This document shows positions 1 through 11,711 of a stretch of DNA of 26,074 bases, in pieces. The stretch spans positions 1 through 26,074 of the IMG/VR virus record IMGVR_UViG_3300021957_000257; one strand, given 5' to 3'. A model generated the notes under the pieces. It did not search any database, was not told the origin of the DNA, and saw only the letters and a list, made by a program, of their open reading frames with translations. The DNA is from a virus. Numbering within the stretch: position 1 is the first letter of the stretch; each line of letters begins with the position of its first letter. The position numbers were made by a program, and so were the translations under genes.

Positions 1-15
1 AAATGTAAAAGTCGT

Positions 16-21
16 TATAAT
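16..21 (+). promoter_or_regulatory. -10 box (TATAAT) before the structured RNA
   Basis: TATAAT in the context TTATAATA matches the -10 context of the early-type cassettes at 706 and 25688. Its -35 partner would lie upstream of the window, so it cannot be checked here. A start 6-9 nt downstream would put the RNA 5' end just before the first helix at 35. Confidence 0.4.
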
Positions 22-27
22 AATATA

Positions 28-435
28 GAAGATTTCCCGAGGCAAATATTAGCGGCCGCTGTATTTGCAGAAAACCGGGATTCACGTGTGCACTCTAAGG
101 GGTGCGGCGACGTAGGTGGGCTACTAAGAATAAAAAGGTAGACTCGATATAAGAGCGCTTATTACCTACACGATACACGCGCTGGACGCACGAGGGAACT
201 AAAATAGTGTATCAACCTAGGAGGAGACAGTATCTCTTACGATTTACAGTATCTCCTCCTCAGAATTATAGGAGTGTAGCTCAATAGGTAGAGCGACGGT
301 CTCCAAAACCGTATATGAATGTTCGAATCGTTCCACTCCTGCCACACGTGTCGTTGATAGCGACTAGTACGGGATGGCATACCGTATGACGAGAAGAGCA
401 TTAACAACCTCAAAACTCAGGCCACATTTTTTTTT
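28..435 (+). ncRNA. Putative large structured non-coding RNA with embedded tRNA
   Basis: No convincing ORF lies here and the stretch is visibly richer in GC than the AT-rich genes around it. A -10 box TATAAT (16-21) would start RNA near 28, and nine T (427-435) could mark the end. Perfect helices can be drawn: 35-39/76-80 enclosing 42-48/62-68; 90-95/100-105 (four-base loop, one G-U pair); 112-117/164-169; 172-178/207-213; 219-227/252-260 (9 bp); 368-372/382-386; and a long-range 83-90/343-350 that encloses the tRNA. Large phage RNAs that sit beside or around tRNAs (GOLLD, ROOL) are known, and this could be a relative or a new class. I recognise no signature of tmRNA, RNase P RNA or a group I intron. 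Ends are estimates, and the stretch before the T run forms only a weak hairpin, so termination is uncertain. Confidence 0.6.
270..344 (+). tRNA. tRNA-Trp (anticodon CCA)
   Basis: A complete cloverleaf can be drawn by hand. The acceptor stem is 270-276 with 334-340 (7 bp). The D stem is 279-282/291-294. The anticodon stem is 296-300/308-312 with loop CTCCAAA (301-307), giving anticodon CCA. The variable loop is 313-316. The T stem is 317-321/329-333 with loop TTCGAAT. U8 and A9 are present, the discriminator is G341 as in bacterial tRNA-Trp, and the CCA end is encoded at 342-344. It is the only tRNA I see in the window. It lies inside the structured RNA region, so it may be cut out of a longer transcript. 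Confidence 0.95.
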
Positions 436-455
436 CATTTATTTTAAATTAACTG

Positions 456-486
456 TTGACTTTAGTTCAATAAGCAGTATTATAAG
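456..486 (+). promoter_or_regulatory. Early-type promoter, copy 1
   Basis: TTGACT (456-461), 19-nt spacer, TATAAG (481-486). The start of the spacer (TTAGT) is shared with the other copies. It stands just after the T run that may end the structured RNA and drives the 63-aa gene at 511, which has Shine-Dalgarno GGAGAG at 501-506. Confidence 0.7.
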
Positions 487-3593: not shown

Positions 3594-4766
3594 TTAACTA
3601 GGTGGTGGAGGCGGTGCTAAACCTTCAAACATCTTTGATGGAGCTGCATCTGTAGGAGGTGGTGGAGGAGCAAGACCTTGCATTCCAGGAGGAGGTGGTG
3701 GTGGAGCAAGATCCTGTTGAGTTGAATCACCCACTTTAGGTATCTTAGGTGTATAACCTGGTGCCCTTGTTTTACATTCGTGGATCCAATTTTCTACTAT
3801 CTGTTTATCAGAAGGAATAAATGTGTTACCCTCAGCATCTGTAATTATAAAAGGTGCTACATTACATTGTAGATTATTCAAAGTAACTTGAACTTCTTGT
3901 AATGCATTTTTCCTAAATAATTTTGCTGCTTCAAGTCTTATTTTAATAAGATCATCAGGATGCAATCTATCTTGCATAATAATATTCTCTTGACCTGCTA
4001 TTTGTCTTTCATAACAAGCACGTTCGTCATCATCGTTAGGAGCAAGATACAACTTACCTTCAGTTTCACCAGTATTTTTCATATCTACTAGTTCAGCATC
4101 TTTCTCTAAATGTTCCATTAGATTAAACCATGTAATTTGATGCCAATTAGGGGCACCTATTAATCTTTCAGGTGATTTACCTTCAAAGGGATCTACATGA
4201 TAGAAGTGTACATCAGGATATGTCTTCAACATCCATTGAAATCTTCTCTGCCAGTTTCTATATGTAGGCGCAATGCCTTCTTCACCTTCTTTAACCTTCT
4301 GATAATGTTTTTCATTAGCATAAAGATTGTTTAGTTTACCATTTTTTTCAGAACCTTCAGAACCGAAACCAAAAAAATCCATTCCTATAAGAAATAACTT
4401 CTTTGATTTGTGTATATCAATAGCAACATGTGAAGCCATAACTCCAGCTGCCATTTTCTCTGGTGTCGTACATTTTTTAGCTCCTGAACCTGGCTTAGGA
4501 TACCAAGTATACAACCAATTTCTTCTCGAGAAATCTTTGAATAATTTATATATTGATTTTGTTAATGGTTCGTCTGAAGATATGTTGACATGAGGTCTAA
4601 ATTCTTTTTTAAAAAACCAATTACAACCATACAGGACGCCGTAGTCCATAAGTTGTTTAATATCTTTATCTTTTCTTGAAGTTCCGTTACCTATTATCCA
4701 CGAATATTGATTTTCCGGTATAATTGGTTTGCTTCCTTGGCTTTTCTTTATTTTTATTTTGCGCAT
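3594..4766 (-). CDS. DUF115/glycosyltransferase-like protein with polyproline tail, 390 aa
   Basis: The N-terminal part (residues 20-190) has WIIGNGTSRKDKDIKQL, then YGCNWFFKKEF, HVNISSDE and KKLFLIGMDFFGF. This resembles the nucleotide-sugar-type fold of DUF115/MAF and sialyltransferase-like proteins; the match is by eye and moderate. The middle is helical and charged. The C-terminus carries three LAPPPPP blocks (about 353-360, 365-371, 383-390) separated by short linkers, a flexible polyproline end. The start overlaps the upstream gene by 80 nt, but no later Met precedes the IGNG motif, so the long form is kept. It could modify a sugar on virion or host; this is not proven. Confidence 0.7.
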   Translation of the reverse strand: MRKIKIKKSQGSKPIIPENQYSWIIGNGTSRKDKDIKQLMDYGVLYGCNWFFKKEFRPHVNISSDEPLTKSIYKLFKDFSRRNWLYTWYPKPGSGAKKCTTPEKMAAGVMASHVAIDIHKSKKLFLIGMDFFGFGSEGSEKNGKLNNLYANEKHYQKVKEGEEGIAPTYRNWQRRFQWMLKTYPDVHFYHVDPFEGKSPERLIGAPNWHQITWFNLMEHLEKDAELVDMKNTGETEGKLYLAPNDDDERACYERQIAGQENIIMQDRLHPDDLIKIRLEAAKLFRKNALQEVQVTLNNLQCNVAPFIITDAEGNTFIPSDKQIVENWIHECKTRAPGYTPKIPKVGDSTQQDLAPPPPPPGMQGLAPPPPPTDAAPSKMFEGLAPPPPPS

Positions 4767-9960: not shown

Positions 9961-10621
9961 TGTAAAGAGTTATCCTTTCTTTTAGCTGGTTAGTATATTT
10001 TATAATGTCTTTTTTGGATAATGTGAAAATTTGTTTTGACCCATCTTGAACAGATATTAAAATACAAACTTGTTCAGGCATTTCACCAACTAATTCTCTA
10101 TAAGCTATAAAATAAAAACAGCCCTGTAAAAAATAATCTTGAATCCATTCTACTTTTTTTGTTCTATTTGAAGTTTTAAAATCTATAATAGATAATTTAC
10201 CTTTATATTCTGCTATACAATCTACAGTTCCTGCTACTTTTAAGATATTAGAATATAAAGGTGTTTCTAGACATCTAACGTTGTCTATTAAATCTAATTC
10301 CGGACGTATTCCCCTAAAAAGAAACTCACCACTAGTAGAGCCAAGATCATCCAAAGGTTCATTGAGCAAGTAATCCTCACAAAGTTTATGCATCGATGTA
10401 CCACGAGTTGTAGCAGCTTTGGTAACTTTGTTAGCTTGTTCCTCGCCAACTCTTTTACGCCATTTAACAAGCGAACTTTTGTCCGAAGTCTTTGAGAGGA
10501 CAGTAGTAATAGACGGATACGAAGTTTTTTGATTAATTTCATATACTCTTCCATTTTCTCCACCGTTCTTTTGTTTAATCTTCGGTATCTCTTTCCAGAG
10601 ATGATTGAATTTTTTTAACAT
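9932..10621 (-). CDS. RecB/Cas4-type PD-(D/E)XK exonuclease
   Basis: At 229 aa with all the nuclease motifs: RGTSMH (73-78), GTVD (131-134), IIDFKT with D147 and K149, and the downstream Q166-x3-Y170 typical of RecB-like and MGME1-like single-strand exonucleases. These residues bind two metal ions to cut DNA. Such exonucleases are frequent in the replication block of T4-like marine phages and probably take part in recombination or host DNA breakdown. It overlaps the ClpX-like gene upstream by 47 nt; no strong RBS is visible, so translation may be coupled. Confidence 0.85.
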   Translation of the reverse strand: MLKKFNHLWKEIPKIKQKNGGENGRVYEINQKTSYPSITTVLSKTSDKSSLVKWRKRVGEEQANKVTKAATTRGTSMHKLCEDYLLNEPLDDLGSTSGEFLFRGIRPELDLIDNVRCLETPLYSNILKVAGTVDCIAEYKGKLSIIDFKTSNRTKKVEWIQDYFLQGCFYFIAYRELVGEMPEQVCILISVQDGSKQIFTLSKKDIIKYTNQLKERITLYNGLTSNKTN

Positions 10622-11711
10622 GATCTTTTGTAACCGTTACGCCTTTCAATTCAAACATATTGTCAAGCAATACATTTTCTAATATAGTTTTTAATCCTCT
10701 AGCACCAGTTTTTTGTTGTAGAGCTAGCTCTGCCATTGCTTTCAGTGACGATTCATCAAATTTTAATTCTAATTGTGATTCGCTAAACAACTTGATATAT
10801 TGATCTACAGGATTATTTTTTACTTTAGTGAGTATGTAAATCAAATCATCTACAGTCAATTCTTTTAAAGCTGCTATCAATGGAATTCTACCTATTAATT
10901 CAGGTATAAAACCAAAGTCTTCAATATCTTGTGGTGTGACTTTTTGTAACAATGTAATATCAGGTTCGTATATTTCTATATCAGCATCTACACCTATATT
11001 AGTTGTAGGTCCTACTTTTAATCTTTTTGCAACATTGTCTTCTAATCCAACAAAAGCTCCTCCAACTATAAAAAGAATATTTGTTGTATCAACTTGTAAT
11101 TTCATTCTTGTCAAACCAGTATTTTTTTCTATATCAACAATTGTACCTTCCATTAATTTTAATAATGCTTGCTGTACACCTTCACCACCAATATCTCTTT
11201 GTTTTCCACTGTTATGTCTTTTAGCTATCTTGTCGAACTCATCTATAAAAATAATTCCGGTTCCTGCAGCTTCGAAAGATTGTCCTGCTGCTGTAATGAG
11301 ACCATCAATCATTGTTTCAACATCTTTACCAACATATCCAGCTGCTGTGAGTGAATTAGCATCTGCTATATGCACTGGAACCTTCAAAAATTCAGCTAAT
11401 TTCTTAACTAGATATGTTTTACCTGAACCTGTAGGACCCAACATTAATACGTTAGTTTTATCTAACCTATCAACAAATTTTGAATCTCTATATATCATTA
11501 ATCTTTTATAATGATTAAAGGCTGCTGTAGATAACACTTTTTTAGCTTTTTCTTGACCTACAACATAGCTATCTAGATAATTGTAAATTTCTTTTGGCGT
11601 AGGAAGATCAAAGTCAGCCATGGCAGAAGAATCGTGAATCAAATCAACTTTTTCTTTTAAACCTTCTAAAAAATCAGAAAGAAAAGTTTTGTCTTTATCG
11701 GCAATATTCAT
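10575..11711 (-). CDS. ClpX-like AAA+ unfoldase without zinc domain, 378 aa
   Basis: Walker A GPTGSGKT (92-99), pore loop GYVG (125-128), Walker B IIFIDEFD (153-160), RDIGGEGVQQALLKLMEGT, then PELIGRIPLIAAL and sensor-2 GARGL. This is ClpX throughout its AAA+ module. Bacterial ClpX starts with a cysteine zinc-binding domain; here the first 35 residues have no cysteine. The loop that carries RKH in E. coli ClpX (substrate tag contact) reads NTGLTRMK, and the IGF tripeptide that docks ClpP appears as IGV. It may unfold proteins alone or borrow host ClpP with altered specificity. No ClpP is encoded in the window. It lies in the replication operon. Confidence 0.9.
   Translation of the reverse strand: MNIADKDKTFLSDFLEGLKEKVDLIHDSSAMADFDLPTPKEIYNYLDSYVVGQEKAKKVLSTAAFNHYKRLMIYRDSKFVDRLDKTNVLMLGPTGSGKTYLVKKLAEFLKVPVHIADANSLTAAGYVGKDVETMIDGLITAAGQSFEAAGTGIIFIDEFDKIAKRHNSGKQRDIGGEGVQQALLKLMEGTIVDIEKNTGLTRMKLQVDTTNILFIVGGAFVGLEDNVAKRLKVGPTTNIGVDADIEIYEPDITLLQKVTPQDIEDFGFIPELIGRIPLIAALKELTVDDLIYILTKVKNNPVDQYIKLFSESQLELKFDESSLKAMAELALQQKTGARGLKTILENVLLDNMFELKGVTVTKDHVKKIQSSLERDTED

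Follow-up and report, generated by a model that had tools for sequence, protein, structure and literature searches.

A GC-rich non-coding block around a tRNA-Trp gene in a T4-like phage: a possible structured RNA of about 400 nucleotides

Large RNAs linked to tRNAs occur in many phages, and to our knowledge no function is known for them; one of them, GOLLD, forms a homo-oligomeric nanocage. GOLLD RNAs are found in phages near tRNAs, and their linker sometimes holds phage tRNAs; many members exceed 800 nt and have a conserved 3' region, and in the GOLLD of a cryo-EM study the 3' region comprises about 410 nt (PMC12286853). ROOL, an RNA of phages and prophages whose function is unknown, is often located near tRNA islands (PMC12286853).

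The locus described here resembles both in that a putative non-coding RNA of a phage is associated with a tRNA. It differs from GOLLD in the length of the block, which is only about 390 nt with 82 nt 3' of the tRNA, and from ROOL, often situated near tRNA islands, in that a single tRNA lies inside the block and no tRNA cluster is present; neither Rfam model is matched. The comparison of positions 1–520 of the window (the whole stretch of DNA that was analysed, 26,074 nt) with all 4227 Rfam models at an E value of 10 yielded only the tRNA and one meaningless fragment. The proposal of a first-pass annotation that the block might be a divergent GOLLD or ROOL is therefore not supported, also in view of a size that is half that of GOLLD; as far as sequence comparison can tell, the arrangement would be like that of GOLLD RNAs with a tRNA in the linker, but in an RNA that is half as large and shares no sequence with them.

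The same annotation had seen no fit to a tmRNA, RNase P RNA or self-splicing intron, and ARAGORN and Rfam bear this out. A tmRNA is found by neither of them, no RNase P model of Rfam is matched at an E value of 10, and an intron within the tRNA can be dismissed, because the gene is continuous (ARAGORN) and no intron model is matched. The two-piece tmRNA of the Methylophilales phage Melnitz, a distantly related marine myophage, is comparable as a structured RNA of 453 nt, but no tmRNA was found in the present locus by ARAGORN or Rfam. With stand-alone phage tRNA-Trp genes the locus shares a canonical tRNA-Trp with an encoded CCA end; unlike this locus, other phage tRNA-Trp genes belong to tRNA clusters or have flanks that are not enriched in GC to this degree.

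The window, a viral record of 26 kb, comes from a marine T4-like myophage. The block is situated at the edge of this contig, and the following features are discussed:

7–21, plus strand: probable promoter −10 region, AAAAGT-CGT-TATAAT, judged from the context of the motif in related contigs; the −35 would fall before base 1, off the contig
35–80, plus strand: predicted 5' hairpin, 35–39/76–80 and 42–49/61–68 (with 51–53/58–60); fold of 28–82 with z −3.0, pair probabilities 0.86–1.0
36–425, plus strand: GC-rich non-coding block, putative RNA (transcript perhaps 28–435); maximal-scoring GC segment, no ORF of at least 60 aa
83–90, plus strand: 5' arm of a proposed long-range helix, 8 bp, perfect with 343–350
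112–169, plus strand: three-way element, 112–117/164–169, 118–125/137–145 and 149–153/158–162, model only
172–213, plus strand: predicted hairpin 172–178/207–213, pair probability about 0.85–0.93
217–262, plus strand: predicted hairpin 219–227/252–260, 9 bp, perfect; fold z −3.1, pair probability about 1
270–344, plus strand: tRNA-Trp, anticodon CCA, CCA end encoded (ARAGORN; Rfam RF00005, 69.7 bits)
343–350, plus strand: proposed to pair with 83–90 as the 3' arm of the long-range helix; it takes in the CA of the tRNA's CCA
353–405, plus strand: 3' domain, weak stem 353–358/400–405 around hairpin 367–372/382–387, model only; GC 0.49, fold z +0.7
427–435, plus strand: T9 run at which the transcript may end; the window has no longer run of T
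456–483, plus strand: promoter-like site of the next gene (511), TTGACT-16-TATTAT, separate from the block

The tail tube and tail proteins of the phage are 20–30% identical to those of Pelagibacter phage HTVC008M, Melnitz, rhizobial phages and cyanophages. The closest relative found is a viral contig of 46.9 kb (G001), in which the sigma-like protein is 91% and the ClpX-like protein 86% identical. Close to the GC-rich block, at 1501–2037, the window encodes a protein with sigma-70 region 2 (Pfam PF04542; sigma factor in PHROG). A ClpX-like AAA+ ATPase is encoded at 10575–11711, and many viral contigs contain relatives of it at 53–86% identity.

The annotated tRNA-Trp inside the block is confirmed, since ARAGORN and Rfam agree on a canonical gene at 270–344. 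Among the tRNA-Trp genes compared, the best match is that of Pelagibacteraceae (62 of 76 positions); the anticodon loop CUCCAAA is identical to that of the SAR11 tRNA, while the anticodon and T stems differ, and the acceptor AGGAGTG is common to many Alphaproteobacteria among the matches listed. The likeness of the tRNA to Pelagibacteraceae and the tail-protein matches make a SAR11 host plausible for this phage. Directly 5' of the tRNA lies a short AU-rich linker (264–269), as is usual for RNase P substrates.

The GC-rich block has sharp boundaries. When GC is scored over the whole window, the best segment is 36–425 with a score of 36.0, compared with at most 17.3 in 200 shuffles; it nearly coincides with the stretch that had been described by eye as richer in GC than its surroundings. 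The second-best segment (score 21.9) lies in the proline-rich coding end of gene 3594–4766, the protein of which has PPPPPP repeats in its C-terminal end. The GC content of the block is about 0.47, versus 0.305 elsewhere in the window, and by part it amounts to 0.46 in the leader (28–269), 0.48 in the tRNA and 0.49 in the trailer (345–426). Because leader and trailer are both GC-rich, the excess is not due to the tRNA alone: about 240 nt on the 5' side and about 80 nt on the 3' side are GC-rich non-coding flank, and this locus has the largest flank GC excess of 58 isolated viral tRNA-Trp loci collected with anchored patterns. A second GC-rich case considered in that comparison, contigs L223 and L212, was discarded, as its flank contains tRNA-like genes that ARAGORN had not called; no hidden degenerate tRNAs were found by Rfam (E value of 10) in the flanks of the present locus. 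The GC-rich stretch begins shortly after the promoter-like box and ends shortly before the T run, and GC falls off sharply before base 36, which speaks against an RNA that reaches far beyond the start of the contig.

The block does not encode a protein of notable size. Of the gaps that the ORFs found leave in the window, 1–510 is the longest, and the earlier view that no convincing ORF is present is confirmed by the lack of any frame of at least 60 aa in this gap, the block itself having short frames only. An antisense function of the leader is not indicated either, as its pairing with the start regions of 32 genes of the window gave no signal (z +1.3).

The TATAAT box that had been placed upstream of the block is present at 16–21. 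The extended motif AAAAGT-N3/4-TATAAT has this single occurrence in the window; in the related contigs L201–L207, it is nearly always located just 5' of a small gene, and 14 matches were counted in 0.40 Mb including the window's own, versus 1.65 expected, several of the contigs being near-copies. The −10 region of the block resembles the second promoter type of these relatives. The first-pass assignment of the box to the type of the early-gene promoters is not supported, since the −35 would fall off the contig. The early promoter-like sequence of the window, TTGACTTTAG, precedes small genes at 456, 706, 2041 and 25688, with a one-mismatch copy at 1461; with up to one mismatch allowed, it has 12 matches in the window versus 4.4 expected. 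The own −10-like box of the block, together with the own promoter-like site of the gene at 511, suggests that the block is a transcription unit of its own. The T run noted at its end is indeed present; nevertheless, about 0.9 T9 runs would be expected by chance, and without a hairpin ahead of it there is no canonical terminator for the block.

With regard to the promoters of the downstream 63-aa gene, L201–L207 have the second promoter-like type, AAAAGTATGGTATAAT, before its homologue, whereas L200 and the window have TTGACTTTAG there. As judged from these motifs, the same gene would stand behind different promoters in different phages.

The search for relatives of the block retrieved none. 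Comparison of the flanks with 50,697 phage records (blastn) gave only chance-level matches, and 35 contigs with a related ClpX-like or sigma-like protein, compared over their full records, gave only short AT-rich pieces; the sole tRNA of these contigs is a tRNA-Asn in two of them. The 178 viral tRNA-Trp places, including that of the window, that were collected in tRNA-Trp-anchored scans have flanks unlike those of the block, two exact 18-mers, one from 88–105 and one spanning the 3' end of the tRNA and the adjoining flank, had no matches, and a covariance model of 83–262 found only the window itself in about 1.6 Mb of loci. A search of 297 genomes of the SAR11 order, performed without a positive control, gave no convincing flank match; its two short matches (E values of 0.002–0.006) are at chance level. 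Eight contigs encode a relative of the downstream 63-aa protein (44–50% identity), and upstream of that gene they contain other genes or AT-rich sequence and not the block. Several of them are fragments, so that the absence holds for the corresponding place only. L200 has the same downstream gene with the same TTGACTTTAG promoter and lacks the block, as is expected of a separate cassette. Because it is missing at the corresponding place in relatives, the block behaves like a lineage-specific cassette, as far as can be judged from the contigs compared.

In silico folding supports a structure less strongly than had been proposed. The free fold of the whole region has an energy of −117.3 kcal/mol (z −1.7 to −2.4 in shuffles), but this minimum-energy fold breaks the tRNA cloverleaf and omits the long-range helix. 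Enforcing the cloverleaf raises the energy to −112.9 kcal/mol, and in the resulting model the long-range helix (83–89/344–350) would enclose a hairpin, the three-way element, the hairpins 172–213 and 217–262, and the tRNA. The long-range helix, described earlier as 83–90/343–350 and enclosing the tRNA, does exist as a perfect 8-bp complementarity and has a probability of about 0.6 under this constraint, although it is absent from the free fold; an 8-bp helix between the leader and the first bases past the tRNA is found in 1.3% of shuffles, a post hoc figure. The outer stem of the three-way element likewise depends on the constraint (probability about 0.7 with the tRNA enforced and about 0.02 without). 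When the tRNA was fixed and the flanks were shuffled, the native flanks folded better than 97% of the shuffles (z −1.9, p 0.027; post hoc). By part, the leader has a z of −2.2, whereas the trailer (345–426), taken alone, is not structured (z +0.7); locally, the hairpins 35–80 and 217–262 stand out most, each with a z of about −3.

The at least seven helices of the first-pass annotation can be found, among them 42–48/62–68, 83–90/343–350, 172–178/207–213 and 219–227/252–260, but their number is at the chance level. Counting stems had to be discarded as proof of structure, because perfect stems of at least 6 bp number 13 with 15 expected, and a list of helices alone is thus no evidence. Local stems of at least 7 bp (42–48/62–68, 172–178/207–213 and 219–227/252–260) number three versus 0.7 expected, which about 3% of shuffles reach. 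As a control, the tmRNA of Melnitz, which is a genuine RNA and similar in length, has a z of −3.0, compared with which the value of about −2 for the block is weaker. The claim to a structured RNA is moderately supported. Hairpin 219–260 is formed by AGGAGGAGA and TCTCCTCCT. A perfect ribosome-binding sequence lies within AGGAGGAGA, but an ATG does not follow within reach, and thus the hairpin is unlike a translation signal.

The locus is real and unusual. The explanation that we favour, and to which we would give an even chance, is an independent phage transcription unit whose product is a non-coding RNA, about 400 nt long, that has the tRNA-Trp as one domain. The block would be transcribed from near 28 to near 426–435, and its GC-rich flanks would form a hairpin at the 5' end as well as a multi-branched domain, possibly closed by helix 83–90/343–350, of which the complete tRNA-Trp would be one branch. 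Host RNase P and 3' nucleases would most likely process part of the transcript into a working tRNA-Trp, and the matured tRNA-Trp would support translation during infection, while the flanking RNA, should it have a role beyond the supply of tRNA-Trp, might serve as a structured body around the tRNA or as a stable leader RNA. The initial description of a tRNA-Trp within a unit of some 400 nt is thus upheld with respect to a discrete non-coding unit (GC segmentation, lack of ORFs, promoter context), but its structure is weaker than stated. In favour of such an RNA are the GC segment, which exceeds the shuffles and includes both flanks, the two hairpins with z of about −3, flanks that fold better than 97% of shuffles, the promoter-like box shared with related phages, the separate promoter-like site downstream and the lack of the block in L200. 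Against it stand the single sequence with no homologue, the fold z of about −2 that falls below that of the Melnitz tmRNA, stem counts at chance, the free fold that destroys the tRNA, the trailer that is unstructured alone, the missing canonical terminator, and the location of the −35 off the contig.

The main rival is a plain phage tRNA-Trp gene whose precursor is unusually long; its flanks would be functionless and recently gained from a GC-richer genome. This is possible, although somewhat unlikely. The stem counts, the modest fold z and the unstructured trailer agree with it, absence from relatives fits a recent gain, and such phages commonly carry single tRNA genes. However, no source of the flanks was found in the phage records or, in the search without a positive control, in the 297 SAR11-order genomes, the GC-rich stretch fits closely between the promoter-like box and the T run, two local hairpins have a z of about −3, and the three annotated tRNA genes of Melnitz have short flanks of about 10 to 90 nt. 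An improbable alternative is the formation of two products, whereby the leader (28–269) would be a separate structured small RNA, the tRNA would mainly serve for the RNase P cut that generates its 3' end, and the trailer would be discarded. The confinement of structure to the leader and the linker at 264–269, which is like that of an RNase P substrate, agree with this scheme, but the trailer (GC 0.49) is no poorer in GC than the leader, helix 83–90/343–350 would tie the two together, and the leader gave no antisense signal with the 32 gene starts. It is very improbable that the block is a GOLLD or ROOL RNA that has diverged strongly or been shortened and holds the tRNA in its linker: the vicinity of GOLLD to phage tRNAs and its sometimes tRNA-bearing linker (PMC12286853) would suit the locus, yet the tRNA model is the only Rfam model matched meaningfully, and about 400 nt contrast with more than 800 nt, and a 3' part of 82 nt with one of about 410 nt.

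A further step from the favoured transcription unit with the tRNA-Trp as one domain would be an independent new class, that is, a compact phage RNA of about 400 nt in a cassette of its own, with a functional tRNA-Trp as built-in branch of a multi-helix body, as a small analogue of tRNA-bearing GOLLD. With a single sequence at hand, this is put forward tentatively and regarded as rather unlikely. If true, it would provide a compact RNA with a tRNA in its fold that is far easier to study than a cage-forming RNA of 800 nt, and it would mean that phages have coupled tRNAs to structured RNAs on more than one occasion. Should the flanks turn out to be functionless, the locus would be merely a tRNA gene with an odd precursor.

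It should be noted that a 10-bp hairpin elsewhere in the window, at 2735–2758 (z only −1.4), covers a ribosome-binding site directly 5' of the ATG at 2759, a position as if for translation control.
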